A program made the translations under genes and the position numbers. From positions 62,001 to 126,000 of the forward strand of contig NZ_LRRH01000008.1 of NCBI RefSeq assembly GCF_001646785.1: a stretch of DNA of 64,000 bases, written 5' to 3'. This DNA is from Rhodococcus phenolicus. Lineage in GTDB: Bacteria; Actinomycetota; Actinomycetes; Mycobacteriales; Mycobacteriaceae. The notes beneath the pieces are model-generated. The model was not told the DNA's origin. It worked only from the letters and a program-made list of their open reading frames with translations, and did not search any database. Of this stretch, positions 18,001 through 34,212 are shown piece by piece (position 1 is the first letter of the stretch; every line of letters begins with the position of its first letter).

Positions 18001-18027
18001 CTTACCAAGCAATCGCTTGGTTCGGTA
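18001..18027 (+). repeat. 27-bp direct repeat, left copy
   Basis: Identical over 27 bp, same orientation, to 34186-34212; it includes the palindromic operator. The two copies bracket the ring-degradation insert. Confidence 0.9.
18004..18021. promoter_or_regulatory. KstR2-type operator, left copy
   Basis: ACCAAGCAATCGCTTGGT is an 18-bp near-perfect palindrome 55 bp upstream of the Rv3549c-like SDR. The 27 bp 18001-18027 recur base for base, same orientation, at 34186-34212 before echA20. A variant, ACCAAGCAATTGCTAGGT, lies between fadE30 and fadD3. Assignment to KstR2 rests on these three regulon positions. Confidence 0.82.
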
Positions 18028-18184
18028 TGGGGCGGTCCCGATCGGCCCCGAACGGTCCGAGAGATCCCGACGGTGGCGCACCGAAGAATCTTGGCGGAGA
18101 ACGGTTTTCGCCGGTGGACTAGTAGAGGACCGGGACGGCCCGCTCGGCCTCGGCCGACCCGAGGCGCAGCGCACGGTGTGCCGG

Positions 18185-18796
18185 CTACGCCGCCAGGTGT
18201 ACCAGCAGCAGCCGGCAGCTGCGCCGGATGTCGGTTTCGGTCCCCTCGAGGGTGGCCCGGCCGTTGAGGAACGCGATGATCACGCCGTACCAGAGCATCG
18301 ACAGCAGCCGCAGCACGTCGCGGTCCGCGTCGGTGGGATCGGCGATACCCGCGGCGTCGAGCACGATCTTCTGGAACTGCTCCTCGACCTTGACCGAGTC
18401 GGGCACCGCACCGGCCGCGGCCGTGCCGTTGGACTGCAGCATCGCCAACGCCAACGACGGGTGCGCGACGAGCTCACGGGTCATCTCGATCAGCGTCTCG
18501 CAGATCGCGTCCTGCACGGACAGGCCGCGATCCGGCGCCGGATCCGGCCGACGCGTTTCGAACCGCTCGAGCCGATGCAGCATCACACCCACGAACAGGT
18601 GCGTCTTCGACGGGAAATACCGGTAGAGCGTTCCGATGGCGACACCCGCCCGCTTGGCGACCTCGGTCATCTGCACGTGCGCAAGGTCGTGCTCGGTCGC
18701 GAGATGCGCAGCCGCATCGAGAATGCGTACGTGCCGCTCCCGCTGGTCCGCCGAAGACGGTTCGGCGCCGTCGCGCGCCACACCGATCCTGGGCAT
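18185..18796 (-). CDS. KstR-like TetR regulator
   Basis: TetR-family protein of 203 residues. Its HTH region, DQRERHVRILDAAAHL to RAGVAIGTLYRYFPSKTHLF, is strikingly like that of KstR (AQRERRKRILDA...VAVGTLYRYFPSKVHLL), the sterol-catabolism repressor. The C-terminal half is more divergent. It is not next to fadE34 as true kstR is in mycobacteria, so it may be a KstR paralogue controlling the second ring-degradation set. ATG 18796 is preceded by AAAGGGGA. It is divergent from the hsaB-like gene. Confidence 0.82.
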   Translation of the reverse strand: MPRIGVARDGAEPSSADQRERHVRILDAAAHLATEHDLAHVQMTEVAKRAGVAIGTLYRYFPSKTHLFVGVMLHRLERFETRRPDPAPDRGLSVQDAICETLIEMTRELVAHPSLALAMLQSNGTAAAGAVPDSVKVEEQFQKIVLDAAGIADPTDADRDVLRLLSMLWYGVIIAFLNGRATLEGTETDIRRSCRLLLVHLAA

Positions 18797-18859
18797 TGTC
18801 GATCCCCTTTCACATCCGATCGGGGTCGATTGTCCCATCGCCTCGCCTCCGGGCAGGCG

Positions 18860-18883
18860 TCCCGGGCAGGTTGCGGCCCGGGA
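18860..18883. promoter_or_regulatory. Inverted repeat in kstR-like / hsaB-like intergenic region
   Basis: TCCCGGGC and GCCCGGGA, 8-bp perfect arms separated by 8 bp, midway between two divergent starts. A candidate operator for the KstR-like protein; a short hairpin is the alternative. No canonical KstR box is seen here. Confidence 0.4.
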
Positions 18884-18942
18884 TGTCCGCTGAGCGAGAA
18901 TCGGGCAGGGGGCGGTGACGGTCCGCCCATAGGCTCGGATCC

Positions 18943-19503
18943 GTGAGTGTCGCCCCGTCCGGGGCGACCCGGACCGAATCGGAGCCGAGGCACATGCACA
19001 CCCAGACGCGGCCCCTGACCACCCCTAGCGAGGCGCCCTCCCCCACCGAGATGCGGCATGCGATGAGTCACTTCGCGACCGGCGTCACGATCGTGACCGG
19101 CTTGGACGACGACGGTCCGGTCGGCTTCGCGTGCCAGTCGTTCGCGTCGGTGTCGCTCGAGCCGCCGCTGGTGCTGTTCTGCGCCGACCATCGGGGCCGC
19201 GCCTGGCCGCGGATCCGCCGGACCGGCCGGTTCGCGATCAATGTGCTGCGCGAGGACCAGTCGGATCTGTGTGCCAGGTTCGGGTCGTCGCGCGGCGCCC
19301 GCTACGAGGGCCTGGACTGGGAGACGTCGCGCTGGGGCACGCCGGCACTGCCCGGGGTGCTTCTTCGCGTGCACGCCGAGGTCGACGACGTGCATGTCGC
19401 GGGTGACCACGACGTGGTGATCGGCCGGGTCGTCGAGCTCGAATGTCTCGACGACGACCGGCCGATGCTGTTCTACCGTGGAGCGTTCGGGGTCGGCGGC
19501 TGA
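18943..19503 (+). CDS. HsaB-like flavin reductase
   Basis: Flavin reductase of 186 residues from GTG 18943, or about 169 from ATG 18994. It resembles HsaB, which supplies reduced flavin to the 3-HSA hydroxylase HsaA. Conserved core: MSHFATGVTIVT, PVGFACQSFASVSLEPPLVLFCADH, FAINVLREDQSDLCARFGS, and LLFYRG-like RPMLFYRGAFG. The C-terminal extension of M. tuberculosis HsaB is missing. It is transcribed towards the hsaC/hsaA-like genes, convergent with the SnoaL-fold gene. Partnership with the HsaA-like protein at 20970 is inferred. Confidence 0.82.
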   Translation: MSVAPSGATRTESEPRHMHTQTRPLTTPSEAPSPTEMRHAMSHFATGVTIVTGLDDDGPVGFACQSFASVSLEPPLVLFCADHRGRAWPRIRRTGRFAINVLREDQSDLCARFGSSRGARYEGLDWETSRWGTPALPGVLLRVHAEVDDVHVAGDHDVVIGRVVELECLDDDRPMLFYRGAFGVGG

Positions 19504-19515
19504 CGGAAGGTCGGC

Positions 19516-19995
19516 TCAGCGCACGCCCGCGGCGAGGAGGTCGCGGGCGTCGGCGCGACCGTCCAGGACACGCGCGATGCGCAGCTTCACCTGCCACCGG
19601 CCGTCCCCGCGCACTAGTTCCCACCGGTTCGCGGTGACCCGAGCTACGCGGAAACCCTTGTCGGTGTTGAGGATCAGCTGCGAATGGCAGGTGACGACCG
19701 CAGTGTCACCGTCGACCCGGATGTTCAGCGGATCCATCAGGTGGCCGCAGCCGCCGTGGATGAACCGCTGGTGCGCTTCGGAACGCACCATCGCCGTGAT
19801 CTCGTCACGGCCACGGTACGCACCCGAATCGACCTCGTACACACCGTCCTCGGTCCACAGCGCGCCGACCGCCTCGGCCGAGCCGCTGTCGACGGCCGGA
19901 CCGTAGGTGGTGACGAGCTGCTGGATCGCGAGGGTGTCCTCGAGCAGTTCGACTCGCCGCGCAAGTTTTTCGACGAGTTCAGCCTGATCGGTCAC
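19516..19995 (-). CDS. SnoaL-like (NTF2-fold) protein
   Basis: Protein of 159 residues with the SnoaL_4 / ring-hydroxylating beta-subunit-like fold: LEDTLAIQQLVTTYGPAVDSG, LWTEDGVYEVDSGAYRGRDEI, RFIHGGCGHLMDPLNIRVDGDTAVVTCHSQLIL. GTG 19995 is used because it follows the hsaC-like stop by 8 bp. Last gene of the iclR-hsaD-hsaA-hsaC-like operon. Possibly an isomerase or hydratase for a ring-cleavage product; not determined. Confidence 0.8.
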   Translation of the reverse strand: MTDQAELVEKLARRVELLEDTLAIQQLVTTYGPAVDSGSAEAVGALWTEDGVYEVDSGAYRGRDEITAMVRSEAHQRFIHGGCGHLMDPLNIRVDGDTAVVTCHSQLILNTDKGFRVARVTANRWELVRGDGRWQVKLRIARVLDGRADARDLLAAGVR

Positions 19996-20003
19996 CTCGG
20001 TCC

Positions 20004-20933
20004 CTACGATCGCGCGCTCGGCGGCGCGAACGCGGCGAGGGGCTCGGAACCGGACCAGTCGTGGCCCCAGTAGCTGTCGGCGGTGATCTCCTCGGCGGTG
20101 TAGAACGTCTCGTCGACGAGCATGCCTTCGGTACCGAACTCGATGTCCCAGCCACCCGGAGCCCGGACGTAGAACGAGACCATCTTGTCGTTCGTGTGGC
20201 GGCCGAGCGTCGAGGAGATCGAGAAGCCCAGGGCCCGGACCCGATCCAGAGCCTGCCCGACCGCGTCGAGGGAGTCGACCTCGAGCATCAGGTGCACCAG
20301 CCCGGGCAGCTCGGTCGGCGGCGCAGGGCACAGCGCGAGGCTGTGATGGCGGCGGTTGACACCGAGGAACCGCACGCGGCGCACGGGCGGCGGCGCCGAC
20401 GGCCCGCCGACGCGGATCGCACCGCGCGGCAGGAAGCCGAGAACATCGGTGTAGAAGTCGTAGACCTTGTCGAACTGCGCGCTCGGCAGCACGACGTGGC
20501 CGAGCCCTTCCTCACCGGTGTGGAACCGGCCCGCGAACGGGGTCACGACCGGGCTGTGGTCGAGCACCGGCCCGAAGAACACCTCGACGCGGGTTCCGCC
20601 CGGATCGTCGAACGCGATGACCTGCTCGGCGTCGCGGTACGTCGACTCCTCTTCCGACAGCACCTCGACGGCGATACCGGCCTTCTCCACGGCCTCGCGT
20701 ACCCGCGCGAGCGCGAACTGGTCGCGGACCTCCCAGCCGACGGCCAGGGCCCTGTCCGTATCGCCGGGCAGCACGATCAGGCGCGCACGGCGCTCGTCGA
20801 TCCGCAGGTACAGCCCGTCCGTTTCCGGCCCGGAGCCGACCGCCAGGCCGAGCCCGTCGACGACGAGTTCACGCCACCGCGCGATGTCTGTGGTCTGGAT
20901 CCTGAGATAGCCCAGTCCCCGAATGTCCGTCAT
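20004..20933 (-). CDS. HsaC-like extradiol dioxygenase
   Basis: Type I extradiol dioxygenase of 309 residues resembling HsaC/BphC, which opens the catecholic steroid A ring (3,4-DHSA) by meta-cleavage. Iron ligands are in place: His146 (GLGHVVLP), His214 (GLVHLMLEVD) and Glu265 (WDIEFGTEG); the acid-base histidine pair is in NRRHHSLAL. It lies 36 bp after the hsaA-like gene and 8 bp before the SnoaL-fold gene. A paralogue of the main HsaC, whose gene is not in this window. Confidence 0.88.
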   Translation of the reverse strand: MTDIRGLGYLRIQTTDIARWRELVVDGLGLAVGSGPETDGLYLRIDERRARLIVLPGDTDRALAVGWEVRDQFALARVREAVEKAGIAVEVLSEEESTYRDAEQVIAFDDPGGTRVEVFFGPVLDHSPVVTPFAGRFHTGEEGLGHVVLPSAQFDKVYDFYTDVLGFLPRGAIRVGGPSAPPPVRRVRFLGVNRRHHSLALCPAPPTELPGLVHLMLEVDSLDAVGQALDRVRALGFSISSTLGRHTNDKMVSFYVRAPGGWDIEFGTEGMLVDETFYTAEEITADSYWGHDWSGSEPLAAFAPPSARS

Positions 20934-20969
20934 GTTCGATAGTCCTTGGTGAGAAGTGGTTTCGGGCCG

Positions 20970-22148
20970 TCAGATCATCGAGCGCATCATGCCCTGCGGC
21001 TCTTCACCGAGCTGGGTCAGCGTGGCCGCGTGGAAGATCGAGCCGGGCACGTGGATGGCGTGGCTCAGGCCTGCGTGGGCGTCACGCCAGAACCGCTGCA
21101 ACGGGTTGGTCAGCTGCAACGCACCGCCGCCGGCCCGCGCGAAGATCTCGTCGACCGCGCGCACCGCACGCCAGGCCGCGGCCGTCTGGGTGCGCCGGCC
21201 GATGGCGCGCATCTCGAACGTGACCTCCTGCCCCTTCTCGGTCATGTCCCAGAAGCGGTCGACGGTCTCGAGGATCGCGGCACGGGACGCGGCGATCTCG
21301 GCGGCCGCGTCACCGAGCGCGGACAGCACGTACGGGTCCTGCTTGATCGCGGTGCCGGACACCGTCACCCGCGACCGCTGCGTCTCGATGTAGCAGTTGA
21401 GGGCGCCTTCGGCGATGCCGATCAGCGACGAGGTGATACCGAGCGGGAAGATGCACGAGAACGGGAAGCGGTAGAGCGTCTCGTCCCGGCCGGCGTCCTG
21501 CCATGCGACACCGCCCATGACGCGTTCGGCGGACAGGGTCCGGTACTCGGGCAGGAAGGCGTTCTCGATGACGAGATCCTTCGAGCCGGTGCCGCGCAGG
21601 CCCACGACGTTCCAGCTGTCCTGATCGATGCGGTAGTCGGAGCGCGGCACGAGCACGTGCAGCGACTTCGGCGGGTTGAGCCGATTGCCGTCCTTGTCGC
21701 CGACCGCGGCGCCGATCATGACCCAGTCGCAATGGTCGGTTCCGGACGAGAAGGACCAGCGGCCGTTGAGGATGTAGCCGCCGTCGACGGGGGTGGCCAC
21801 GCCCATCGGTGCGTACGGCGAGGCGATCCAGGTGTCCGGATCGTTGCCCCAGACCTCGTTCTGCGCCTTGGGATCGAAGAACGCCATCTCCCAGGGGTGC
21901 ACACCGACGATGCCGGAGACCCAGCCGGTGGCGCCGTCCATGGCTCCGAGAGCCATCGCGGTCTCGGCGAATTCACGCGGGTGCGCTTCGAGGCCACCGA
22001 ACTCGGCGGGCTGGAGCATCCGGATGACCCCGGAATCGCGCAGTCGCTTGGCACTGCGATCGGTCAGGCGCATGAGCTTGTCGCCTTCGGCGCCGTCGGC
22101 GCGGATCTCGTCCGCGAACGGTGTGATGGAGTCGAGAACCTGTCCCAT
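20970..22148 (-). CDS. HsaA-like flavin-dependent hydroxylase (oxygenase part)
   Basis: Protein of 392 residues with the acyl-CoA-dehydrogenase-like fold of two-component flavin monooxygenases such as HsaA (3-hydroxy-9,10-seconandrost-1,3,5(10)-triene-9,17-dione 4-hydroxylase). Seen: GVIRMLQPAEFGGLEAHPREF, MDGATGWVSGIVGVHPWEMAFFD, LNGRWSFSSGTDHCDWVMIGA, and the C-terminal NPLQRFWRDAHAGLSHAI typical of the group. It needs a flavin reductase; the HsaB-like gene at 18943 is the nearest candidate. Confidence 0.88.
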   Translation of the reverse strand: MGQVLDSITPFADEIRADGAEGDKLMRLTDRSAKRLRDSGVIRMLQPAEFGGLEAHPREFAETAMALGAMDGATGWVSGIVGVHPWEMAFFDPKAQNEVWGNDPDTWIASPYAPMGVATPVDGGYILNGRWSFSSGTDHCDWVMIGAAVGDKDGNRLNPPKSLHVLVPRSDYRIDQDSWNVVGLRGTGSKDLVIENAFLPEYRTLSAERVMGGVAWQDAGRDETLYRFPFSCIFPLGITSSLIGIAEGALNCYIETQRSRVTVSGTAIKQDPYVLSALGDAAAEIAASRAAILETVDRFWDMTEKGQEVTFEMRAIGRRTQTAAAWRAVRAVDEIFARAGGGALQLTNPLQRFWRDAHAGLSHAIHVPGSIFHAATLTQLGEEPQGMMRSMI

Positions 22149-22235
22149 GATCTACCGGCTTTCTGGTGTGGTGCCCGGGTTCACCCAGGCGGACGTCCGG
22201 TGGAAGTCGCGCCCGCCGAGCGGGATCGGTGAGGG

Positions 22236-22253
22236 GTGAGCGTGTTCGCTCAC
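22236..22253. other. Intercistronic hairpin at the end of the hsaD-like gene
   Basis: GTGAGCG, loop TGTT, CGCTCAC: a 7-bp stem-loop covering the hsaD-like stop codon, before the 101-bp gap to the hsaA-like gene. It could set relative expression of the two genes. Confidence 0.4.
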
Positions 22254-23116
22254 GCGTCCTTGCGGTTGAGGAAGGCCAGGACGGCGTCGAGCCACGCGTC
22301 GCGGGCCTCGATCATCGTCCAGTGCCCGCAGTTCGGGAACACGTGCAGCTCGCCGTTGCGCAGTTCGCGCATGGGGAGCATTGCCATGTCGACGGGGCTC
22401 ACGCGGTCGTCGCGGCCCCACGTGATGAGCGTCGGCGCGGTAATCTTGCCGAGCTGCGCCCAGTAGGGGGTCTCGGTGGACGCGAGCGCGGCGCGGGCAC
22501 CGGCCTCGAACGCGGCCGTGCTGTACATGCGGCGTGCGATCTCGAGGGTCTTCGGTTCGGTGGCGAGTTCCCAGCGCTCCTGGATCAATTCGTCGGTGAC
22601 GATCGCGGGGTCGTACACCATCGAGCGGAGCCAGCGAACGAGCTTCTCACGCGTCGGGTCGTCGGTGAACTCCATCAGGAGGCGGATACCTTCACCGGGC
22701 GACGGCGCGAACACCGAGCGTCCGGCGCCACCGATCGTGACGAGCTTGTGCACGCGGTCGGGTTCGGCGATGGCGAACTGGGTGCCGACGATGCCGCCCA
22801 TCGAGTTGCCGATGATCGACACCCGGTCGAGGCCGAGGGCGTCGAGGAAGTCGGTGACCGCGAAGCGGGCCATCACCATGGGGTGGCCCTCGCACGGGTC
22901 GCTGACGCCGAATCCGGGGAATTCGAGGACGAGGCAGCGGAAGTGCTCGGCGAGGTCGGCGAGCACCCCGCGGTAGTTCCGCCAGCCGGTCACGCCCGGG
23001 CCGGAGCCGTGCAGCAGGAGCAGGGGCGGCCCGTCGCCGGCTTCGTGGTATCGGAGGACACCACGGTCGGTCGTGATGGACTTCGCGGTCTCCTCGTAGC
23101 TGAGTTCCGTCGTCAT
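22250..23116 (-). CDS. HsaD-like meta-cleavage product hydrolase
   Basis: Alpha/beta hydrolase of 288 residues resembling HsaD (4,9-DSHA hydrolase), which splits the C-C bond after steroid A-ring cleavage. Catalytic triad visible: Ser105 in GNSMGG, Asp in WGRDDRVSP and His in NCGHWTMIEA. The oxyanion stretch LLLLHGSGPGVTGWRNYRG is typical of MCP hydrolases. It is the second gene of a leftward operon, 64 bp after iclR, followed by hsaA-like and hsaC-like genes. Confidence 0.88.
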   Translation of the reverse strand: MTTELSYEETAKSITTDRGVLRYHEAGDGPPLLLLHGSGPGVTGWRNYRGVLADLAEHFRCLVLEFPGFGVSDPCEGHPMVMARFAVTDFLDALGLDRVSIIGNSMGGIVGTQFAIAEPDRVHKLVTIGGAGRSVFAPSPGEGIRLLMEFTDDPTREKLVRWLRSMVYDPAIVTDELIQERWELATEPKTLEIARRMYSTAAFEAGARAALASTETPYWAQLGKITAPTLITWGRDDRVSPVDMAMLPMRELRNGELHVFPNCGHWTMIEARDAWLDAVLAFLNRKDA

Positions 23117-23180
23117 GATCGGTACATTCCCAGCGCTGCCCGTACCGTGCGCGCAGGCTCCCGGTGAACGGGACCGGTCC

Positions 23181-24098
23181 CTACGCCCATGCCCCGGCAT
23201 CGTCCGCGACCAGCTGCGCGGCCGTGTCCGGCACCGCGAAGGATGCGGAATCGTCGGCGAGACGGCGGCCACGACGCGGCGCCCCCAACTCGGGGTAGAG
23301 CATGCGCGAGATGTCGCGGGCGGCGTCCGCGACGAGCGGCGCGATGCGCTCGAGGTGGCCGGGCCGTGCCGGGCCGCACAGCGAGATGCCCGCGACCGGG
23401 CCCTGCGGGCTGCGGACGGGTGCACCGACGCATGCCATGCCGGCCATCGCCTCGCCCGTTTCGAACGCGAGCCCGTGACGCTGCCGGATACGGCCCAGTT
23501 CGCGGTGCAGCACCGCGAGGTCGGAGATGGTGCGGTCGGTGCGGCGCGACAGTCCGGCGCCGTACAGCGCGTCCACCTGTTCCGGCTGCAGGCCCGCCAG
23601 GATCGCCTTGCCGCACGCGGTCGCGTGGGCGGCGACGCGTCCGCCGACGCGGGAGGTCAGGGTGGCGGCGAGCTGCCCGCCGACCTTGTCGAGGTAGACG
23701 ATCTCGCCGCGGTCCAGGACCGCGAGATGCGCCACCATCCCGGTCTGCAGGTGCAGCTCGTGGAGCACCTGGGCAGCGGCCTCGCGGATGCGCCCGTGGC
23801 CGTTGTCACCGGCGCCGAGGGACTTGGCGCGGCGGCCGAGGCAGTAACCGAACGACGCGTGGTCGACCCATTCGAGCCGGACCATCTGGTCGAGGATGCG
23901 GTGGACGGTGGAGCGGGGAAGCCCGGTACGGCAGGCCACTTCTTCGAGGGTGAGCCGGGAGGAGGCGTTGTCGAAGGCGTCGAGGATGAGTGTCATACGC
24001 TCGACCATGGATGCCGGAAGTTCGCGCTGCGGCGCCGCGGCCCGCGTCGATTCCGGTTCGGACATGAATTCGCTTGCAGCATTTCCGGATTCGAACAT
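23181..24098 (-). CDS. IclR-family regulator
   Basis: Protein of 305 residues. N-terminal winged helix at about 40-95: SMVERMTLILDAFDNASSRLTLEEVACRTGLPRSTVHRILDQMVRLEWV. The C-terminal GAF-like effector domain has GMVAHLAVLDRGEIVYLDKV and AHATACGKAILAGL. ATG 24098 is preceded by GGAGGAGG. As first gene of the hsaD/hsaA/hsaC-like operon it probably senses a ring-degradation intermediate and controls this operon and the divergent LLM-OYE pair. Confidence 0.88.
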   Translation of the reverse strand: MFESGNAASEFMSEPESTRAAAPQRELPASMVERMTLILDAFDNASSRLTLEEVACRTGLPRSTVHRILDQMVRLEWVDHASFGYCLGRRAKSLGAGDNGHGRIREAAAQVLHELHLQTGMVAHLAVLDRGEIVYLDKVGGQLAATLTSRVGGRVAAHATACGKAILAGLQPEQVDALYGAGLSRRTDRTISDLAVLHRELGRIRQRHGLAFETGEAMAGMACVGAPVRSPQGPVAGISLCGPARPGHLERIAPLVADAARDISRMLYPELGAPRRGRRLADDSASFAVPDTAAQLVADDAGAWA

Positions 24099-24179
24099 TG
24101 GCGTTACCTCCTCCAACCCCTCGATGTGGGGGCAACCCGAGGGACTGAAATTCATTCTTGTGATCGACGCAACAAGTAT

Positions 24180-24191
24180 CACCGATCGGTG
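24180..24191. promoter_or_regulatory. 12-bp perfect palindrome, iclR/LLM divergent promoter
   Basis: CACCGATCGGTG, flanked by GTAT and GATAC so that the symmetry extends imperfectly. It is 82 bp upstream of iclR and 159 bp from the LLM gene. A candidate IclR operator. Confidence 0.45.
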
Positions 24192-24349
24192 CCCGATACA
24201 CAACATCCCACTGAGCAGGAAGGTCCGGGGCCCCGCCCCGATCGGGCCGGGTACAACGGTCGGAAAGGGACGATCACGCGCTCCACACCCACGCCACCGG
24301 CCGCCGGCGACGCGGGGCGCGCCGGGTTCGGTACGAGGGGTCCGATCGC

Positions 24350-25264
24350 ATGTACATAGGTGTCACATCTCCCGTGGTCATCGACCATCCCGACTCCCGG
24401 GTCGAGTGGGAACGCCACGCCGGCATCGACGAGCTGGCGCGCGTCGCCGAGGCCGCCGACCGGCTCGGCTACCACCACGTCACGTGCAGCGAACACGTCG
24501 CCGTCCCCTCCCGGATCGCCGCCGAGCGCGGCGGGGTGTACTGGGATCCGCTCGCGACCTTCGGCTACCTTGCGGCCCGCACCCACCGGATCAGGCTCAA
24601 CACCCGCGTGCTCGTGCTCGGCTACCACCATCCCCTCGAGATCGCCAAGCGCTACGGCACCCTCGACGCGATCAGCGGCGGTCGCCTGGTGCTCGGGCTC
24701 GGCGTCGGCAGCCTGGAAGAGGAGTTCGCACTGCTCGGCGCGTCCTTCGCGGACCGGGGCGCCCGCGCCGACGAAGCACTCCTCGCCCTGCGTGCCGGAC
24801 TGTCGAACCCGAACCCGGAGTTCCACGGCACCTTCTACGACTACGCGGACGTCGAGGTGCGGCCACATGCGGTCCAGCCGCGGGTGCCGTTCTGGATCGG
24901 CGGGCGCACCGCACGGTCGCTGCGGCGCGCCGTCACGCTCGGTGACGGCTGGCTGCCCTTCGGTCTCACCGTGCAGCAGATCGACGAGATGCTGCGCCGA
25001 GTGGATCTGCCGGCCGGTTTCGACGTCGTCCTCGACGCCGGTCGTCTCCTCGATCCGCTCGGTGACCGCGATGCGGCCCTGCGCGCCCTCGACCGCCGCC
25101 GCGCGATCGGCGCCACCGTCGTGAGTGCCGGCATCGTGTCCACCGGCGCCGACCACTATTGCGATCAGCTCTCCGCGCTGCACGAGTACGCCGGCGAAGC
25201 CGGGGTGACCTTCGAATCCTCTCCTCCGAAAACCCCTTCCGATATCGACGAAAGTTCCCGGTAA
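24350..25264 (+). CDS. LLM-class F420-dependent oxidoreductase
   Basis: Luciferase-like protein of 304 residues, TIGR03619-type: MYIGVTSPVVIDHPDSRVEWERHAGIDELARVAEAADRLGY, HVTCSEHVAVPS, RYGTLDAISGGRLVLGLGVGSLEEEFALLG, and VPFWIGGRTARSLRRAVTLGDGW. It is divergent from iclR and followed 3 bp later by the OYE gene. Third of four LLM enzymes in the window. Substrate unknown. Confidence 0.83.
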   Translation: MYIGVTSPVVIDHPDSRVEWERHAGIDELARVAEAADRLGYHHVTCSEHVAVPSRIAAERGGVYWDPLATFGYLAARTHRIRLNTRVLVLGYHHPLEIAKRYGTLDAISGGRLVLGLGVGSLEEEFALLGASFADRGARADEALLALRAGLSNPNPEFHGTFYDYADVEVRPHAVQPRVPFWIGGRTARSLRRAVTLGDGWLPFGLTVQQIDEMLRRVDLPAGFDVVLDAGRLLDPLGDRDAALRALDRRRAIGATVVSAGIVSTGADHYCDQLSALHEYAGEAGVTFESSPPKTPSDIDESSR

Positions 25265-25267
25265 CGC

Positions 25268-26413
25268 ATGACGAAAACCCTGTCCCCGCTCTTCCGTCCG
25301 CTGTCGGTGCGTTCGCTCGAGCTGCCCAACCGGATCGTGATGTCGCCGATGACCCGGTCGCACTCCCCCGGCGGCATGCCGGGAGCCGATGTCGCCGAGT
25401 ACTACCGGCGGCGTGCGGCCGGCGGCACCGGCCTGATCGTCACCGAGGGCGTCGCGATCGACCACCCGACGGCCGTCGACAACCCCCGGGTCCCGCGGAT
25501 GCACGGCGACGAAGCCCTGGACGGCTGGCGGCGCGTCGTCGACGCCGTCCACGCCGAGGGTGGACGGATCGTTCCGCAGCTGTGGCATGTCGGTCCACTG
25601 TGGGGAGCGATGACCAGCAAGGTGGACCCGGCGCTGACGCCGATGCGCCCGTCGGGCCTGTGGGGCGAGCCCGGTGTCACCGCCTACTCGGACGAGTACG
25701 TCGAGCAGGCGTCGCAGCCGTGCCGGCCGATGACCGCCGACGACATCGCCGATGTCGTCGACGCGTACGCGCGGGCCGCCCGTGCCGCGCTCGACGTCGG
25801 ATTCGACGGGATCGCGCTGCACGGCGGCCACGGATACCTGCTCGATGCGTTCCTGTGGGCGAGCACCAACCGGCGCGACGACGAATGGGGCGGCGACCTG
25901 GAGCGGCGCACTCGCTTCCCGGCAGCGGTGGTCGCGGCGATCCGCGCGGAGATCGGCGAGGACGCCCCGATCTTCTTCCGGTTCTCGCAGCACAAGCAGC
26001 AGGACTACACCGCGCGGATCGCGGAGACCCCGGAGGAACTGGGCACGATCCTGGGTGCCCTGGCCGACGCGGGAGTCGACGTGTTCGACGCCAGCATTCG
26101 CCGATTCGACGTCGCCGCGTTCGATGGCAGCGACCTCTCGCTCGCGGGGTGGGCCAAGAAACTCACCGGCGCGCTGTCGATGGCCGTCGGCAGTGTAGGG
26201 ATCGCGACCACGTTGCGGGAGACTCGGCTCGGCGCGGCCGCACCGTCCCGCGACAACATTCCCGAACTCGAACGCCGGCTCGCGGCCGGCGAGTTCGATC
26301 TCGCCGCGATCGGCCGGTTGCATCTCGCCGATCCGCAGCTCGCGGCGACCCTGCGGGCCGGTGGCCCGCTGCCCGAATTCGACCGCGGCGTACACGAGCT
26401 CACGCTCACCTGA
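25268..26413 (+). CDS. Old yellow enzyme family flavin oxidoreductase
   Basis: NADH:flavin oxidoreductase of 381 residues with an OYE TIM barrel: LPNRIVMSPMTRSHS at the FMN site, QLWHVGPLWGA, GFDGIALHGGHGYLLDAFLWASTNRRDDEWGGDLERRTRF with the substrate-binding His pair region, and AVGSVGIATT plus AAIGRLHLADPQ for the phosphate site. Members reduce activated C=C bonds; a steroid enone or enoyl intermediate is plausible from context. Ends in a strong bidirectional terminator. Confidence 0.88.
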   Translation: MTKTLSPLFRPLSVRSLELPNRIVMSPMTRSHSPGGMPGADVAEYYRRRAAGGTGLIVTEGVAIDHPTAVDNPRVPRMHGDEALDGWRRVVDAVHAEGGRIVPQLWHVGPLWGAMTSKVDPALTPMRPSGLWGEPGVTAYSDEYVEQASQPCRPMTADDIADVVDAYARAARAALDVGFDGIALHGGHGYLLDAFLWASTNRRDDEWGGDLERRTRFPAAVVAAIRAEIGEDAPIFFRFSQHKQQDYTARIAETPEELGTILGALADAGVDVFDASIRRFDVAAFDGSDLSLAGWAKKLTGALSMAVGSVGIATTLRETRLGAAAPSRDNIPELERRLAAGEFDLAAIGRLHLADPQLAATLRAGGPLPEFDRGVHELTLT

Positions 26414-26477: not shown

Positions 26478-27920
26478 TCAGTCGGCGGTCCGTCGCGGGA
26501 TCATCGCCGTCAGGACGATGGCGACGACCGTGCAGATCACGATCATGGCGCCGACCAGGTTGAGCCCGGTGACGGTCATCGCACCGCCGGCGGTGACGGT
26601 CGCGGCGAGGATCATCGTCGCGAGCGACGTGCCGACACCTTGACCCGCCATCCGCAGCACCGTCTGGGTTCCGGTGGTCTCACTGGTGTTGCGTTCCGGC
26701 ACGGATTCGACGATGAGGTTGGGCAACGCGGTGTACGCGAACGCCGTCGCGATCGACACCACGACGACCATCGCGGTCATCGCGAGTTCCGAGCTGTGGG
26801 CGGTCAGCATCACGACCACACCCACGACGAACAGCACGCTGCCGAGCAGCATGGACGTGCGTGCTCCGACGGCAGCGGCGATACGGCCGCTGATCGGCGT
26901 GCACGCGAACCCGAACAGGGACCCGATGAACGAGAGCCACCCGGCGTACGTCGCGGACAGGCCGAGGCCGAACGAACCTGTCGTCGGGGATTGCATCACG
27001 ATCGGGATGATCATGGTCACCACACCGAGCGGGCCCATCGCGATGGCGAGTGTCGCGAGCATCGTCAGGGTGAACTTGCGATCGGCGAACAGCCGCACGC
27101 TGATGAGCGGGTTCGCGACCTTCAGTTCCCAGCGCACGAGCAGCACGAGCCCGGCGAGTCCACCGATCACGAGGGCGAGGAAACGCGGATCGGTCCAGCC
27201 CCACGCGCCCACCTTGTTGATGCCGAGCAGTACCGCGGCGACCGACGCGGCGAAGATGACGGCGCCGATGTAGTCGATCGGCTCCTTGGTTCCCTTCGGG
27301 GCGCGCCACGGCAGGACGAACAGCACGAGCAGCAGAGAGAACAGCGAGTATCCGGCGGCGACCACGAAGATCATGTGCCAGCTCGCGTAGTCGATGAGCA
27401 ACCCCGCGACGAGCAGCGAGGCGGCACCGGCGGTGACCGCGGTACCGGAGATCAACGCGACGGCAACGGGAACACGCGCGGCCGGAAGGTGTTCCCGCGC
27501 CAGCCCGATGCACAACGGCAGGATCGCGCCGGCGACACCCTGGATGGTTCGGCCGACGATGATGCTGCCGAGGCTGTCGCCCAGGGCGCTGACGAGCGAG
27601 CCGAGGGCGGCGAGGGCGAGCAGGACGACGAGCACGCGTTCGCGGCCGTACATGTCGCCCAGCCGGCCGCATGCGGCCGCGGATGCCGCGGCCACGAGCA
27701 GGAACGCCGTGACGGCCCAGCCAACGGTGGTGGCGTCACTGTCGAAATCTTCGATGAGCGTGGGGATCGCCGCATACATCATCGAAGTTTCGAAGGCACT
27801 GATGATCTCGACGGCGATCAGTACCGCCACGATCACCCAGACGGGACGTTGGCGGGCATAACGCCCCTTGACGGGCGGATCGGGATCCAGGTGGTCGACT
27901 CGGGTCGCATCGGAGGTCAC
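26478..27920 (-). CDS. MFS transporter, drug:H+ antiporter-like (14-TMS type)
   Basis: Major facilitator of 480 residues starting at GTG 27920. About 14 hydrophobic helices can be counted, starting PVWVIVAVLIAVEIISAFETSMMYAAIP. The loop after helix 2 reads GRLGDMYGRERVLVV (motif A), and motif C-like ALISGTAVTAGAASLLV is present. This size and pattern fit DHA2-type exporters. Its neighbours suggest it exports or imports a steroid or intermediate, but efflux of an unrelated compound cannot be excluded. Confidence 0.85.
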   Translation of the reverse strand: MTSDATRVDHLDPDPPVKGRYARQRPVWVIVAVLIAVEIISAFETSMMYAAIPTLIEDFDSDATTVGWAVTAFLLVAAASAAACGRLGDMYGRERVLVVLLALAALGSLVSALGDSLGSIIVGRTIQGVAGAILPLCIGLAREHLPAARVPVAVALISGTAVTAGAASLLVAGLLIDYASWHMIFVVAAGYSLFSLLLVLFVLPWRAPKGTKEPIDYIGAVIFAASVAAVLLGINKVGAWGWTDPRFLALVIGGLAGLVLLVRWELKVANPLISVRLFADRKFTLTMLATLAIAMGPLGVVTMIIPIVMQSPTTGSFGLGLSATYAGWLSFIGSLFGFACTPISGRIAAAVGARTSMLLGSVLFVVGVVVMLTAHSSELAMTAMVVVVSIATAFAYTALPNLIVESVPERNTSETTGTQTVLRMAGQGVGTSLATMILAATVTAGGAMTVTGLNLVGAMIVICTVVAIVLTAMIPRRTAD

Positions 27921-28084
27921 AGATTCGATTCCAGACGTTCAGCGCACCACGTAGCGCGGTACGCGGGGGGAAGGAAATGGACGAGGGCCGGCACACTCTG
28001 GGCCGGCAACCGTGTCCCACACCACTTTCCCGTCTCGAATGTGTCTGCCCCGTCCAAGGTCTCGCTCAGCGGGAACTCGAAGAA

Positions 28085-28117
28085 GAAGGCGCCCACGGTA
28101 TGTCCGTGGACGCCTTC
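28085..28117. terminator. Hairpin between SDR and MFS genes
   Basis: GAAGGCG with CGCCTTC outside and CCACGG with CCGTGG inside, loop TATGT. It is the second hairpin downstream of the leftward SDR gene; the rest of the 264-bp gap to the MFS start shows no convincing gene. Confidence 0.5.
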
Positions 28118-28138
28118 GTCGTTGCACCTTCACCCGTG

Positions 28139-28170
28139 AGTGCCGCGGCGAGCGAAGCCGCCGCGGCACT
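28139..28170. terminator. Hairpin terminator of the SDR/KshA-like operon
   Basis: AGTGCCGCGGC pairs with GCCGCGGCACT (11 bp) around a 10-nt loop, ending 14 bp beyond the SDR stop on the leftward strand. Confidence 0.75.
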
Positions 28171-28184
28171 TCTCGGCCGATGCC

Positions 28185-28988
28185 TCAGCGGTTGAGCAGG
28201 GCGCGCATCGCCTCGGCCGCACCGCGAACCATCGCGTCGCGGGGGAATCCGCTGCGCTTGATCGCGGCCTTGTAGTTGCCGCCCGCGACCCACACGGGCC
28301 CGTCGGCCAGATGCTCGAGACCTTCGCGCGCGACATCCTCGGGCTCGGACACGAGCATGCCCGGTACATCGAAGTTCAGTCCGGCGCGTTCCATCGCGGG
28401 CGTACGGGTGACACCGAGGACCAGCTCGAGGACATCGACGCCGTGCGGCGCGAGTTCGAGCCACAGGCTTTCCGCGAACACCCGGCTGAACGCCTTCGAT
28501 GCCGCGTAGATGCTCTGGTGTTCCGAACCCATGTACCCGGCGAGGGATCCGAGCAGCATGATCCCGCCGCGACCCATGTCCTTCATTCGCGCCCCGAACA
28601 GGTGCGCGAGCTCGATCTGCCGGTGCACGTTCAGGTCGATGACTCCCCGGAAGCCGTCGAGGTCACCGGTGACGAATTCGTGGCCGTAGCTGTTCGCTCC
28701 GGCGTTGAAGATGAAGAGCCCGACCTCGAGATCCGCGGTGGCCGTGCGGATCTGCTCGACCGCATCGTCGACGAGCAGATCCAGTGCGAGCGTGCGCACC
28801 TCGACACCGTGCTCGCGTACCGCGGAAGCGGTGTCCTCGAGCGGTCCCGGCTTGCGTGCGATCAGCAGCAGATCGAATCCGGCGCGACCGAGTTCGTCGG
28901 CGAAGGCCGCGCCGACTCCCTCGGAACCACCGGCGATCACCGCCCACTTGCCGTAGCGAGCACTGTCGATCTGCAGGGTTTCGGTCAT
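28185..28988 (-). CDS. Short-chain dehydrogenase
   Basis: SDR of 267 residues with an atypical cofactor loop, AVIAGGSEGVGAAFADELGRAGFDLLLIARK, and the catalytic motif SIYAASKAFSRVFAESLWLEL (YAASK). NAGANSYG replaces the usual NNAG. Such classical SDRs often reduce ketones on steroids or fatty acyl chains. It lies 44 bp after the small Cys protein in the KshA-like operon, suggesting a steroid hydroxy/keto interconversion. Substrate unknown. Confidence 0.82.
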   Translation of the reverse strand: MTETLQIDSARYGKWAVIAGGSEGVGAAFADELGRAGFDLLLIARKPGPLEDTASAVREHGVEVRTLALDLLVDDAVEQIRTATADLEVGLFIFNAGANSYGHEFVTGDLDGFRGVIDLNVHRQIELAHLFGARMKDMGRGGIMLLGSLAGYMGSEHQSIYAASKAFSRVFAESLWLELAPHGVDVLELVLGVTRTPAMERAGLNFDVPGMLVSEPEDVAREGLEHLADGPVWVAGGNYKAAIKRSGFPRDAMVRGAAEAMRALLNR

Positions 28989-29032
28989 CACTCGTCCTTC
29001 GAAAACTGTCGGTACGCGAACTGGAATCGGAA

Positions 29033-29290
29033 CTACTGGAGGATCGGACCTGGGACGGGCGCGTCGTCGAGAACCTCGACCAGCCCCTCGGCGGCGGCGC
29101 GGGTCAGGCTGGCCTCCATCGCCGAGCACGTGATCACCGGTGCACCCGGCCGCCGCCCCGGTCCGGACGCGCTGCCGAACTCACGGCAGCGGCTGCGCGC
29201 CTCGGCGCTCCACTGGACCTCGGTGTGTTCCCAGCTGTTCTTCTGCACCAGCACCTGCGCCTGGCATTCACTGCACCGAAGTGGCTGCAT
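29033..29290 (-). CDS. Small cysteine-containing protein next to KshA-like oxygenase
   Basis: Protein of 85 residues: MQPLRCSECQAQVLVQKNSWEHTEVQWSAEA is not written further here; C6-x2-C9 form a zinc-ribbon-like knuckle, with Cys35 and a later Cys. ATG 29290 lies inside the end of the kshA-like gene (23-bp overlap), which indicates translational coupling. It is too short for a plant-type ferredoxin and lacks the four-Cys spacing. An assembly factor or metal-binding accessory protein for the Rieske enzyme is a guess from position. Confidence 0.68.
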   Translation of the reverse strand: MQPLRCSECQAQVLVQKNSWEHTEVQWSAEARSRCREFGSASGPGRRPGAPVITCSAMEASLTRAAAEGLVEVLDDAPVPGPILQ

Positions 29291-30446
29291 TCTTGCCCGC
29301 CTCCGCTGCGCTTGCCGCCCTGGCTGCGAGGTTCTCATCGACTTCCTTCATCCACGCCGCGACCGGGCGCGTGGTGTCCATCTCGAATTCGAAGCGGTCG
29401 GTCATCTCGGGCTTGACGTCCGCGACATCGACGTAGAACTGCTCGTACCACCGGCGCAGCTGGTAGACGGGACCGTCCTCCTCGCACAGCAGCGGGTTCT
29501 CGATCCGGGTCTTGTTCTTCCAGATCTCGATGTCCTGCTCGAAGCCGCGCGCGATGAAGTCACCGAACTTCTGCGCCGTCTCGAGAGCGGCTTCGCCTTC
29601 GAGCTGGGGCGACTTCTTGACGATCATGCCGTACATGAGCACGAACTTGTCGGCCGACACCGGGTAGTGGCAGTTCAGCAGCACCGATTCGATGTCGTAG
29701 CCCTCGTACTGGTACTTCAGATCGTCGATCATGAACGACGGGCCGAAGTACGACGCCTCCGACCGGCTGCCCAGCATCTTCGGCTGTCCCTCGGTGTTCG
29801 GGCGCATGTCGTCGCGTGCCTTGCCGTTCATGACCTGCGTCGCGACATGCCCTTCGAAGACGTTCTTGAAGAACGTCGGGAACGAGTAGTGCACGTAGAA
29901 GAAGTGCGCCATGTCGACGATGTTGTCGATGATCTCGCGGCAGTTGGTGTCGACCTCGGTGGTGTACCAGACCCAGTCCGTCCAGTCGTCACTGGTGGCG
30001 CCCTCGATACGGGGGATCGCGACCTCCGCCGGCGGCTGGTTGCCTTCGGGGTCGTGCCAGACGAACAGCAGACCGTCCTGGTCGAGGGTGGGCCACGCCC
30101 GGGTCCTTGCGAGCGGCGGAACACGGCGGGCATAGGGGATGTTCGTGCACTTGCCCTTGCCGCCCCACCGCCAGTCGTGGAACGGGCACGCGATGTCGTC
30201 GCCCTTGATCGTTCCCTGGCTGAGATCGCCGCCCATGTGCCGGCAGTACCCGTCGAGGATCTTGATCTCTCCGGCGGAATCGGCCCACACCACGAGCTTG
30301 GTGCCGAACGCCTCGATGGAGTGCGGCTTCCCGTCGCGGAAGCTGTCCGTCAGTCCGAGGCAGTGCCAGCCGCGGGCGAAGCGGGTGGGGGCGGTACCGG
30401 TGACGATCTCGCGGATGTCGGAAGTACCGGAGGTTTCCAAGCTCAC
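29268..30446 (-). CDS. kshA: KshA-like 3-ketosteroid 9alpha-hydroxylase, oxygenase component
   Basis: Rieske non-heme iron oxygenase of 392 residues close to KshA (Rv3526), which hydroxylates C9 of 3-ketosteroids and, with KstD, opens ring B. Rieske ligands Cys68, His70, Cys87, His90 (CRH...CPFH); mononuclear iron ligands Asp178... by motif N-I-V-D-M-A-H-x4-H, with His181 and His186. GTG 30446 is the start. A reductase (KshB) is not in the window. Rhodococci commonly carry several kshA copies with different steroid preferences, and this is one of them. A KstR-like box lies 54 bp upstream. Confidence 0.9.
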   Translation of the reverse strand: MSLETSGTSDIREIVTGTAPTRFARGWHCLGLTDSFRDGKPHSIEAFGTKLVVWADSAGEIKILDGYCRHMGGDLSQGTIKGDDIACPFHDWRWGGKGKCTNIPYARRVPPLARTRAWPTLDQDGLLFVWHDPEGNQPPAEVAIPRIEGATSDDWTDWVWYTTEVDTNCREIIDNIVDMAHFFYVHYSFPTFFKNVFEGHVATQVMNGKARDDMRPNTEGQPKMLGSRSEASYFGPSFMIDDLKYQYEGYDIESVLLNCHYPVSADKFVLMYGMIVKKSPQLEGEAALETAQKFGDFIARGFEQDIEIWKNKTRIENPLLCEEDGPVYQLRRWYEQFYVDVADVKPEMTDRFEFEMDTTRPVAAWMKEVDENLAARAASAAEAGKNAATSVQ

Positions 30447-30499
30447 GGCCGGCCGTCCTTTCGGTGGTGAGGGTCGGTGGGATCGAAAGCGCTACTGGG

Positions 30500-30513
30500 T
30501 TTTACGTGTTCAA
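30500..30513. promoter_or_regulatory. KstR-like box upstream of kshA-like gene
   Basis: On the leftward strand TTGAACACGTAAAA matches TnnAACnnGTTnnA except for one base (GTA instead of GTT). It is 54 bp upstream of the kshA-like GTG. It may bind KstR or the KstR-like paralogue at 18185. Confidence 0.55.
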
Positions 30514-30586
30514 CCATTGTCACGGTAGGTGAGCCGGACAACAGCCGAATCGTCGGTCTCACTCGGTGGGACCCCCGAGAGCGTGC

Positions 30587-32254
30587 TCAGGACACCGGCG
30601 CCGGGAGCAACGCCGCGCGACCGTTCGCGGTGAATTCACGCTCGATGTCGGCGCGCATCGACTCGTCGAGCAGCACGTACTCGGTGGTGCGTGCCACACG
30701 CACGTAGACCGGGTCGCCGGTGTGCCACGCGACCGCGCGCAGCGGCGCCTTGTCGATCTTGTTGCTGCCGGTGAGCGGGATGTGGTCGGTGACCCGCACG
30801 AACCGCGGCCACCACTTGTCACCCATGTCCGGTTGTGCGGCGAGGTCGCGGCCGAACGCTTCGGGGTCGAAGACGGCACCGGCGTCCATCTCGACGGCGC
30901 ACATCACCTGGTCGCCGGTCGTCGGGTCCGGCACCGCGAACACCGGCGCCGACAGCACGCCGGGCAGCCGCTGCAGGATCCGCTCGACGGGCGCCGCCGC
31001 GAAGTTCTCGCTGTCCACCCGCAGCCAGTCCGACGACCGGCCCGCGAAGTAGAAGTACCCGTCCTCGTCGCGGTAGCCGAGGTCGCCGGTCCAGAAGTCC
31101 TCGCCGCGGATCCGGTCCGCGACCGCACCAGGGTTCTTGTAGTACCCCTCGAACGACGCGGCCGCGCCGATCGCGACGATCTGTCCGACGGCCTCGGGGT
31201 TCAGCAGCCGGCCGGTCGGGTCGAAGCGCCCGCGGGGACATTCGAGGCCGGTGTTCTCGTCGAGGATGCGCGCCTCGGAACCGCCGGCGGCGACACCCAG
31301 CGACCCGGTCGGGGTGTCCGGTGTGCGGTTGATGCGCAGGACCCCTTCGCTCGAGCCGTAGCCCTCGATCACGGTGCAGCCGAACCTCTCGGAGAACCGC
31401 GCCACGTCCACTTCGGACGCTTCGGTGCCGAAGGCCACCTCGAGGGTGCCGGTCCGGTCACGGGGATCTTCGGGCCGGTTCAGCACGTACGACAGGGCGC
31501 GGCCGACGTAGTTGACGAAGGTCGCGCCGAAGCGGTGGATGTCCTCGGAGAACCGGCTCGCGGAGAACTTGCGGATGAGGCCGACGGTCGCGCCCACCCG
31601 CATCGCGGTCCCGAGGTTGAGCATGACCGCGTTGCCGTGGAACAACGGCATGCACAGGTAGGCGACGGAGTCGCGGCGCATATGGGTGCGTTCGACGAGC
31701 ACGTCGACGAGCCGTCCGAGACGGCCCTGGGTGACGATCACCGCCTTCGGCCTGCCCGTCGATCCGGAGCTGAACAGCAACAGCGCGATGTCGTCACCCG
31801 CGGGAACGGTGTCCGGGAGGGCTGCGCCGCGGTAGGGCTCGAGGAACCGCTCGTAGCCGGGCGTGTCGATGTCGACGATGCGGTCGGCGGCAAGTCCGTG
31901 GTCGGTGCCGACGACGAGATGCGCCAGCCGTGACTCGGTGACGAGCAGGTCGATGTCGGCCTGGCGGATGTCGTCGGCGATCTCCGGCCCGCTGCGGCTG
32001 GCGTTGATCCCCACGACCACGGCTCCGGCGAGGGCACCCGCTCCGATCCAGAACACGAAATCGGGCACGTTCTCGAGGAGCACACCGATGTGACGCTGAC
32101 GACCGTGCGGCGGTGGCACGGCCGCCACCAGCGCTGCGGCGCGGTCCGCGCTGTGCTGCACGACCTCGTCCCAGGTCCATTGCCGGTCCTCGAACCGCAC
32201 TCCGATCTTGTCGTCGCCCTTGCGAGCACGCACGACCTCGGCGAACGTCTGCAC
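30587..32254 (-). CDS. FadD17-like acyl-CoA synthetase
   Basis: ANL-superfamily ligase of 555 residues resembling FadD17 (Rv3506), an enzyme linked to C-24 branched sterol side chains. Motifs: [71 protein letters not shown], and the catalytic lysine in [16 protein letters not shown] 32254 is preferred to GTG 32260 because GGAGG lies 5 bp before it. Divergent from another ligase gene. Confidence 0.82.
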
Positions 32255-32421
32255 TGCCACCTCCGAATCGTTGCGGACGCCCGCGTGCGGACATCCCGGA
32301 CAAGCACGTTAGGAGGGGCCACCCGCCGCATCTGTGCAGGTCCCACTCACCGGTACATTCGGATGGCGGCGCGGTGAGCGTGAGACTCTTCGGCCGGATG
32401 TTCGGTCGAGAAGGGAGGCTC

Positions 32422-34107
32422 GTGTTGACCGTGCCACCCGATCCTCAGCGCTTCGTCGACCAGCTGATCTCCCGCCTCACGGGTCGCGGCGGGATGTTCG
32501 AGATCGTGATGAGCGATGTACTCGGCACCGAGATGCCCGTCATGCGGAACCGGGACCGCGCCGTCGCGGATCTGCTGGAGCGTTCGCAGGCGTGGGGCGA
32601 CCGCGAGTACCTCGTCACGACGACGCGGCGGATCTCGTTCGCAGAGCACGCACGGGAGGCGTATGCGCTCGCGGCGGCGCTGCAGCAGCGATACGGGGTC
32701 GGCGTCGGCGACCGGGTCGCGATCCTGTCCGCGAACCGGCCCGAGTGGGTCACCGCGTTCTGGGCGACGCAGGCGCTCGGGGCGATCACGGTGGGGTTGA
32801 ACGCGTGGTGGGCGCAGCCCGAGCTCGAGTTCGGGATCCGCAACTCCGCGCCGCGCGTGCTGTTCGTGGACGAGCAGCGCGCGGAGTCAGCGGCCGGTCT
32901 CGGCCCGGACGGCCCCGTCGTGCTGACCCTCGAGGAGGATCTGCCCCGGCTGATCGCCGAGTTCGACGGGTCACGGCCTCCGGCACCGCAGGTCGACGAG
33001 GACGATCCGGCCGTCCTGTTCTACACCTCGGGTACGAGCGGAGACCCGAAGGGCGCATTGCATTCGCAGCGGAACCTGTTGGCGGTCACGGACTATCATC
33101 GTTTCCTCGACGCGATCACCGCGACGTGGAGCGGTGAGGTGTACGAGCGGGACGCTCCTTGCGACGCGCGGCATCTGCTGACTTCTCCCGTGTGCCACAT
33201 CACGAGCCTGCACAACACGATCGTCCCGGTGCTCGCGACCGGCAGCACCATCGTGATGAACCAGGGCTGGTTCGGCGTGCATCCCGTCCTCGAAATCATC
33301 GAGAACGAGCAGATCACGCATTGGAACGCCGTCCCGTCCATGGCGGCGCGGATGCTCGAGGTCGACGACCTGGACAGGTACGACCTGAGTTCGCTGGTCC
33401 GATTCACCCTGTCGTCGGAGCCGACGACGCCGGAGGTCAAGCAGCAGCTGCGCGAGCGGCTGCCGTTCGGCCGGTTCACGGTCGTCGACAGCTACAGCAT
33501 GACCGAGTGCAGCACGTCGATCGCCGTGGCGAGCGCGCAGGAACTCGAGCAGTACCCGGGCACGGTCGGGCCGCCGATCATCACGGTGAGCATGGAGATC
33601 CGGGACGAGCACGGTGGCTGGCTGCCGGACGGGCAGGCCGGCGAGGTGTGCGTGCGCAGCCCATTCGTGATGCTCGGCTACTGGCGGGACGACGCCGCCA
33701 CGGCGGCGGCGATCACCCCGGATCGGTGGCTGAGGACGGGCGACTTCGGTGTGATCGAGAACGGCCGGCTGCGGCTGCTGGGCCGGCGCTCCGATCTGAT
33801 CGAGCAGAACGGCGAGGACATCTACCCCTCCGAGGTGGAGCGGGTGCTCGGTGCGCACCCGGCCGTGCGCGAATGCCTGGTCAGCGGCGAGCCGCATCCC
33901 GAGTGGGGCGAGGAGGTGTGTGCGGTCGTGGTTCTCGTCCCCGGTGTGGAGGCCACGAAGGAGGAGCTCACGGCCTATCTCGCCGATCGGCTCGCGTACT
34001 TCAAGGTACCGACCCGCTGGCGCCTGACCCGGGAAATGCTGCCGCGCAACACAACCGGCAAGATTGTGCGCCGCCGCCCCTCCGAGGACGATCCGACCGG
34101 GCGCTGA
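32422..34107 (+). CDS. Acyl-CoA synthetase
   Basis: Class I adenylate-forming ligase of 561 residues. Motifs: [77 protein letters not shown] and [11 protein letters not shown] with the catalytic Lys. GTG 32422 follows AAGGGAGG at 3 bp spacing; TTG 32425 would have better spacing, and GTG 32374 is also in frame. It closes the 16-kb insert. It resembles steroid-cluster FadD enzymes, but I cannot name the orthologue. Confidence 0.82.
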
Positions 34108-34185
34108 AACGGCGCTGCGCCTCCCGCCGGCTCGATCCACCGGCGCCCCCTTGCGGTCCTGTGCCGGGGAGCGGCTGTGTGCTAG

Positions 34186-34212
34186 CTTACCAAGCAATCG
34201 CTTGGTTCGGTA
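34186..34212 (+). repeat. 27-bp direct repeat, right copy
   Basis: Identical over 27 bp to 18001-18027. The outward flank (TAGC before, CCGACG after) differs except for TAnC on the left side. Confidence 0.9.
34189..34206. promoter_or_regulatory. KstR2-type operator, right copy
   Basis: ACCAAGCAATCGCTTGGT, 26 bp before the echA20 ATG. The surrounding 27 bp (34186-34212) are identical to 18001-18027 in direct orientation, and the neighbouring bases TAnCTTACC also match. Confidence 0.85.

Follow-up and report, generated by a model that had tools for sequence, protein, structure and literature searches.

A KstR2-type operator on both flanks of a bile-acid-type gene block in Rhodococcus phenolicus and its relatives

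Two boxes resembling the operator of the TetR regulator KstR2 stand far apart in a 64,000-nucleotide stretch of the Rhodococcus phenolicus genome (contig NZ_LRRH01000008.1, positions 62,001 to 126,000; hereafter the window), and they raise the question of how one operator came to lie at both ends of a block of catabolic genes. The first box (17998–18027, + strand, TAACTTACCAAGCAATCGCTTGGTTCGGTA) is beside SDR2, a short-chain dehydrogenase/reductase gene of Rv3549c type by position (17176–17949, −), which adjoins echA20 in other genera; the second (34183–34212, +, TAGCTTACCAAGCAATCGCTTGGTTCGGTA) is beside echA20 itself (34232–34993, +). Positions 18001–18027 equal 34186–34212 over 27 bp, in direct orientation and 16,185 bp apart. 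A third KstR2-type box (59958–59987, +), before fadD3, matches the first at 77% and lacks the TTCGGTA found in the SDR2-side box; sequence comparison bore out what the original prediction had said of these letters. We consider it probable that, in an ancestor shared by 16 of the 18 genomes examined from the window's genus, a bile-acid-type block came to lie in the promoter common to SDR2 and echA20 and the operator was doubled.

Exact CCAAGCAATYGCTWGG occurs at three places only in the 6.28-Mb genome, namely the two flank boxes and the box before fadD3. With one mismatch allowed, CCAAGCAATYGCTTGG gave three forward matches against none for the control, which was the pattern read backwards (a family-wide box survey of at least 251 genomes served for control only). 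With two mismatches to CCAAGCAATYGCTWGG one extra place appeared, and the backwards control was equally frequent (6+3 versus 4+3), so looser matches carry no meaning. The strict 14-bp KstR2 motif AnCAAGnnCTTGnT was not found in the window; both boxes are a variant listed for R. jostii, which sits in an intergenic region of Rv3549c/Rv3550 type. Those parts of the KstR2 regulon study of Kendall et al. (2010) on which we draw list this R. jostii ro04652/ro04653 site as a KstR2 motif in Table 3, report that KstR2 bound the orthologous Mycobacterium tuberculosis site in gel shift, with the R. jostii sites given as 'nd', and describe one motif in the 60-bp gap between the divergent orthologues of M. 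smegmatis (PMC3068626). Both window boxes equal the R. jostii site over 24 bp, and the region shares with that system its flanking genes, its three boxes and a nearby kstR2 gene; the published arrangement has a single box and two divergent operons, whereas in the window the box is doubled and the operons are 16 kb apart (PMC3068626). The KstR2 protein encoded in the genome (57258–57869, −; TetR domains; E 7.7e-77 to KstR2 structure 4w1u and 3e-110 to 2ibd) is the presumed regulator, and the conservation of the boxes suggests that both are under its control.

Searching all 18 genomes of the genus for boxes, and comparing the window's proteins with them by tblastn, we found two CCAAGCAATCGCTTGG boxes on one contig in 13, separated by 9,583 bp (G012) to 34,058 bp (G001). 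Three more (G005, G010 and G013) carry them on separate contigs with block genes beside them, although G013 has only a 29% thiolase fragment at its echA20 box; a further box elsewhere in G005 was excluded from the pair counts. Sixteen of the 18 have block genes between their boxes or next to them, and the two boxes of one genome agree at 23 (G010) to 30 of 30 letters. In favour of an assembly artefact, the window genome is in draft form, with 232 contigs; against it, the layout recurs in 16 genomes, four of which (G002, G004, G006 and G017) hold the locus on contigs longer than 5 Mb. The odds of a 27-bp repeat arising at random in 64 kb with 68% GC are, by our own estimate, of the order of 1e-6. 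The repeat is confirmed as an observation, and we give negligible weight to chance or misassembly.

The original prediction had SDR2 and echA20 facing each other; they are in fact back to back (divergent), and their arrangement in relatives bears directly on the question. Among the best 80 echA20 loci from one scan of named genomes, SDR2 lies 66–205 bp upstream of echA20 in 72. These uninterrupted loci span Prescottella, R. koreensis, R. triatomae, R. spelaei, R. spongiicola, R. xishaensis and Speluncibacter, as well as Gordonia, Williamsia, Dietzia, Mycobacterium/Mycolicibacterium and one Nocardia metagenome-assembled genome (MAG). Two further loci (R. erythropolis and R. sp. P-2) have SDR1 in SDR2's place, and L144 starts too near echA20 to be informative. 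Four belong to the window's genus: L093, L094 (R. coprophilus) and L100 (R. zopfii) have block genes upstream of echA20, and L104, which begins 944 bases before echA20, has a 29% thiolase fragment in that stretch. All 74 loci with SDR2 or SDR1 adjacent have a single box place in the gap (places two bases apart being one near-palindromic box read on both strands), with no further box on the SDR side within the DNA examined; 24 loci have one or two extra box places 5.5–10.7 kb downstream of echA20. Within the genus, G003 and G015 show the order SDR1–box–echA20 with a single box, the block being absent there, and they have no SDR2 orthologue (best copies 58% and 56%).

This gene-order comparison, which had been set beforehand, favours insertion and agrees with the proposal that a block entered the shared promoter. 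We saw neither SDR2 and echA20 apart in all relatives, with independently diverging boxes, nor the block at the same place in distant genera with single-copy boxes. That the split locus is the older state, and that the other genera reached one box by losing the block, is most improbable: G003 and G015, without both SDR2 and the block, indicate that deletions at the site may happen, but precise losses would have had to occur separately in many genera, with one box remaining in a 66–205 bp gap every time.

Could the matching letters themselves record the event? The original prediction read them as a remnant of insertion, and this did not hold. Compared with 26 letters of the window's box, the 74 one-box loci match at 25 in seven cases and at 17–23 in the other 67 (23 in two, 22 in one, 17–21 in 64), and the single box of G003 and G015 carries all 26. 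Because one-box relatives carry nearly the same letters, and selection can keep identity, the 27-bp identity is by itself no footprint; it reflects conservation, not recent origin. An alternative, that the block landed beside the single box and selection then gave the operon left without it a KstR2 operator of its own with convergent letters, draws on exactly this conservation, under which identity needs no duplication, and TetR operators are able to arise by few changes. We nonetheless judge it unlikely. The shared stretch extends beyond the palindrome, with AACTTA on the left and TT[CT]GG on the right each kept in 15 of 16 SDR-side boxes. Moreover, both copies are oriented like the relatives' single box in all 14 genomes with two non-palindromic cores (13 one-contig genomes and G013, judged by flanking genes); this orientation is chromosomal and not gene-relative, so convergence would need chance or a constraint on the whole stretch to account for both the extended match and the orientation.

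The flanks of the boxes differ in what they have kept. On the echA20 side, left and right flanks resemble those of near one-box relatives, the nearest of which have TGTG[AC]TAAC before the box. An alignment of the DNA before echA20 has the same series in 18 of 18 genus genomes: CTG[TG]G[CGT], 18 bp, TGC-TA[AG]C[TC]T, the box and a conserved leader. From it we propose the hexamer and the TGC-TA[AG]C[TC]T element as the echA20 promoter, which in the window would comprise CTGTGC (34159–34164), 18 bp and TGC-TAGCTT with its −10 at 34183–34188 and the box directly after (34159–34188 overall, +); the −10 part is also present in one-box relatives. The SDR-side box is without TGTGCT, the first letters of this −10, in 16 of 16 genomes. 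This pattern fits an ancestral bidirectional promoter from which each operon kept its own needs and the common stretch, and the shared stretch is then a lower bound of the doubled DNA. Upstream of SDR2 and of echA20, CCAAGC-4-GCTTGG is the one palindrome present in all rows (16/16 each), and no palindrome in all rows was found before any of the 11 block genes tested. The best candidate for a conserved palindrome serving the block's own regulator was a 5-bp arm before hsaD in 11 of 14 rows, and it was rejected.

In other genera a single KstR2 operator, with SDR2 to its left and echA20 to its right, would serve both operons. We propose that this promoter came to hold the bile-acid-type block in the ancestor from which the 16 genomes descend. 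The operator would have ended in two direct-orientation copies, one per flank. The echA20-side copy would have kept the old promoter, with −35 CTGTGC, extended −10 TGC-TAGCTT and the box right behind, and the SDR2-side copy the SDR2-proximal part without TGTGCT. Selection for KstR2 binding would presumably have kept both almost unchanged since then, turning one two-way switch into two, and the block would have gained and lost genes afterwards (9.6–34.1 kb between boxes). That both flanking operons keep their control, as originally claimed, is a prediction from box conservation.

When the block would have arrived was addressed with six flanking proteins (1826 columns; 32 of 47 concatenated rows, comprising 18 genus genomes and 14 named outgroups). 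On these proteins all 16 genomes with the block group in a single clade (98/98), to which G003 and G015 are sister. This is most simply read as a single insertion in the ancestor of that clade, a reading that draws partly on the locus's own genes.

Several results weigh against a single insertion with doubling. The tree that supports the clade was built from genes of the same locus. With rpoB–rpoC, the best tree joins G003 and G015 to the zopfii group (support 56/17), and a clade of the 16 is 0.61 log units worse with an approximately unbiased test p-AU of 0.446, which leaves monophyly of the 16 undecided. The one-box sites of G003 and G015 are themselves altered, since SDR2 is also gone from them, and a deletion of SDR2, box and block may have taken place there. 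The shared orientation counts as one event and is worth at most a factor of two. The degenerate box pattern of the genus survey was at least as common as its reversed control, so the weight rests on the exact cores and their positions. Composition, proposed originally as a check at the block edges, gave no GC break and no insertion signature (0.687 in the block versus 0.677 and 0.684 beside it).

The history of the block is also mosaic. Related clusters are located elsewhere in other genera and also in G003 and G015; the G003 stand-alone copy is sister to the block copies in the kshA and SDR3 trees (SH-aLRT 91 and 89) and is not joined to them in those of hsaA (99), hsaD (89) and hsaC (82). 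The G003 CasG matches a further locus of six block genomes at 70–73% and the block copies in six of seven at only 63–65% (G012 has none). Simple relocation of the lineage's stand-alone cluster is not claimed, since the gene trees disagree. Of the 16 genomes with the block, 15 have a second CasG-like gene (50–61%) at another site, so a second cholate-type locus may persist in them.

What is the block? Its gene content looks like that of a bile-acid (cholate)-type ring-degradation cluster. At the right end, lig2 (32506–34107, +; start uncertain) encodes a CasG-type steroid-24-oyl-CoA synthetase, a ligase for C5 side chains, above its cut-off (805.6 bits versus 750), and the neighbouring CasI-like steroid-CoA ligase (30587–32260, −) is below the cut-off for CasI, the type acting on C3 side chains (617 versus 900). 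The gene calls of the original prediction were right in kind, and that of the KshA-type Rieske oxygenase was confirmed (29268–30446, −; Pfam KshA_C 314.7 bits; E 1.4e-233 to the solved KshA 4qdf_B), but the KstR- and Hsa-like proteins all scored under the NCBIfam cut-offs for these names. They are a KstR-like TetR regulator (18188–18838, −; 117 bits to KstR, cut-off 280; TetR domains), an HsaB-like flavin reductase (18991–19503, +; 190, cut-off 230), an HsaA-like monooxygenase (20973–22148, −; 381, cut-off 450), an HsaD-like hydrolase (22253–23113, −; 256, cut-off 400) and an HsaC/BphC-like extradiol dioxygenase (20007–20933, −; 323, cut-off 450), the last narrowly over the cut-off for BphC (368.9 versus 366.45). 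The remaining genes encode a SnoaL-like protein (19519–19923, −), an IclR-family regulator (23184–24098, −), an F420-dependent LLM oxidoreductase (24350–25264, +), an old-yellow-enzyme (OYE) family oxidoreductase (25268–26413, +), an MFS transporter (26478–27920, −) and SDR3 (28185–28991, −).

Site-specific or box-mediated integration of a circle with its own KstR2-type box, the two boxes being its left and right junctions, would account for the repeat, as such integration leaves direct repeats of about 27–30 bp at both ends. Against it, no integrase or transposase was found among the 14 block proteins scanned (smaller open reading frames were outside the scan), and the block occurs in 16 species with changing length. 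A CCAAGC-N4-GCTWGG box was present in none of 20 stand-alone cluster regions (13–20 kb each, partial clusters), and a box-carrying donor cluster was accordingly rejected as a candidate. Within 400 bp inside the block ends there were inverted matches of 10–12 bp only and no 10-bp direct matches; in the proteins and end regions scanned, neither the enzyme nor the terminal inverted repeats of an integrative or transposable element were found. We regard integration as very unlikely and retain insertion with doubling of the operator.

The cholate-type block invites comparison with a known cluster. A rhodococcal cholate (bile-acid) catabolic cluster was reportedly described by Mohn in 2012. The window block has the likeness of such a cluster in its CasG-type and CasI-like ligases, KshA-, HsaA/B/C/D-like enzymes and KstR-like regulator. 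The difference is one of place: in the parts considered of Bergstrand 2016 and of a review, the Rhodococcus cluster lies away from that for cholesterol and lacks C/D-ring genes, with an exception in R. equi, whereas the window block is inside a promoter of the C/D-ring regulon and not remote (PMC4810484; PMC8399759). Growth of R. ruber Chol-4 on cholic acid is stated in the portion consulted of another paper (PMC6498646). The doubled-operator arrangement was not found in the titles, abstract starts and passages of the literature examined, a scope outside which subscription papers, Mohn 2012 included, fell. The locus would thereby qualify published statements of the cluster as remote from C/D-ring genes. 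It would also give comparative work an instance in which a catabolic cluster divides a shared bidirectional operator and both halves still bear the operator throughout a clade of 16 genomes. Whether the control of bile-acid genes alters when they lodge in the C/D-ring regulon becomes testable here.

In the window, the genes at the two block edges point outward: the TetR gene (−) runs to the SDR2 box and lig2 (+) to that of echA20, which leaves each box facing a single operon. Hairpin terminators between either gene and its box were considered and rejected, as the stretches folded no more stably than shuffled sequence (z −0.02 and −0.72, with a shortened stretch for the latter). In a nine-genome subclade, both boxes are again between divergent genes. 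At the SDR2 box of eight of these (not G012), an operon leads away whose first gene encodes a dehydratase-domain protein, 94–121 bp from the box in six and placed by alignment in G016 and G017; in G016 it encodes this protein, an Ltp-type thiolase and two acyl-CoA dehydrogenases. A thiolase gene leads away from the echA20 box, 76–148 bp off in seven and placed by alignment in G008 and the contig-cut G013. The doubled operator might have given such block genes access to KstR2, a tentative idea that we think doubtful: the SDR2 box has lost the −10 letters on its operon side (CAACTT), and the dehydratase and thiolase operons have other conserved elements of their own. Were it true, one C/D-ring switch would have become two bidirectional switches, and bile-acid side-chain genes would be under HIP-CoA control.

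Beyond the block lies SDR1, of Rv3548c type by position (16265–17176, −). Downstream of echA20 are ipdA, ipdB and ipdC (35040–37740, +; ipdA start approximate), named by position and literature, and the third box is followed by the fadD3-type ligase gene (59992–61539, +; 740 bits to the FadD3 family, cut-off 657). No KstR2-type box was found by the patterns used in the region upstream of kstR2 (57258–58060); in this it differs from R. jostii ro04598, which has a listed box in the parts of the regulon paper considered (PMC3068626). Transcription of kstR2 in the window may start from the fadE30-side promoter.

Some loci of the survey showed features of their own. Both G010 boxes (L037:7065 and L038) have a changed centre, AATT and not AATC, either because each changed in parallel, giving a perfect palindrome, or because one copy converted the other. 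Block size varied: G012 (L013, L024) has a reduced block of 9.6 kb, 14.7 kb between the OYE and SDR3 genes of G001 (L016–L017) are unmatched by window proteins, and so are 9.1 kb (G006, L021) and 7.1 kb (G008, L027–L028) after hsaB. SDR2 is missing beside echA20, with SDR1 at the box, in L106/L107 (R. erythropolis, R. sp. P-2) and in L031 (G003) and L033 (G015); the two pairs are on separate branches of the flanking-gene tree, by which SDR2 loss may have happened twice. In L152, from a Mycobacterium MAG, 1.7 kb (2068–3754) lie between SDR2 and echA20 with a box in the interval beside echA20 only, possibly a second, unrelated interruption. The window genome itself has a further HsaA/HsaC pair on another contig (G000:C57:1096–2001), 72 and 77% to the block copies, whose SnoaL-, IclR-, TetR- and thiolase-like neighbours point to another steroid-type cluster in the same genome.

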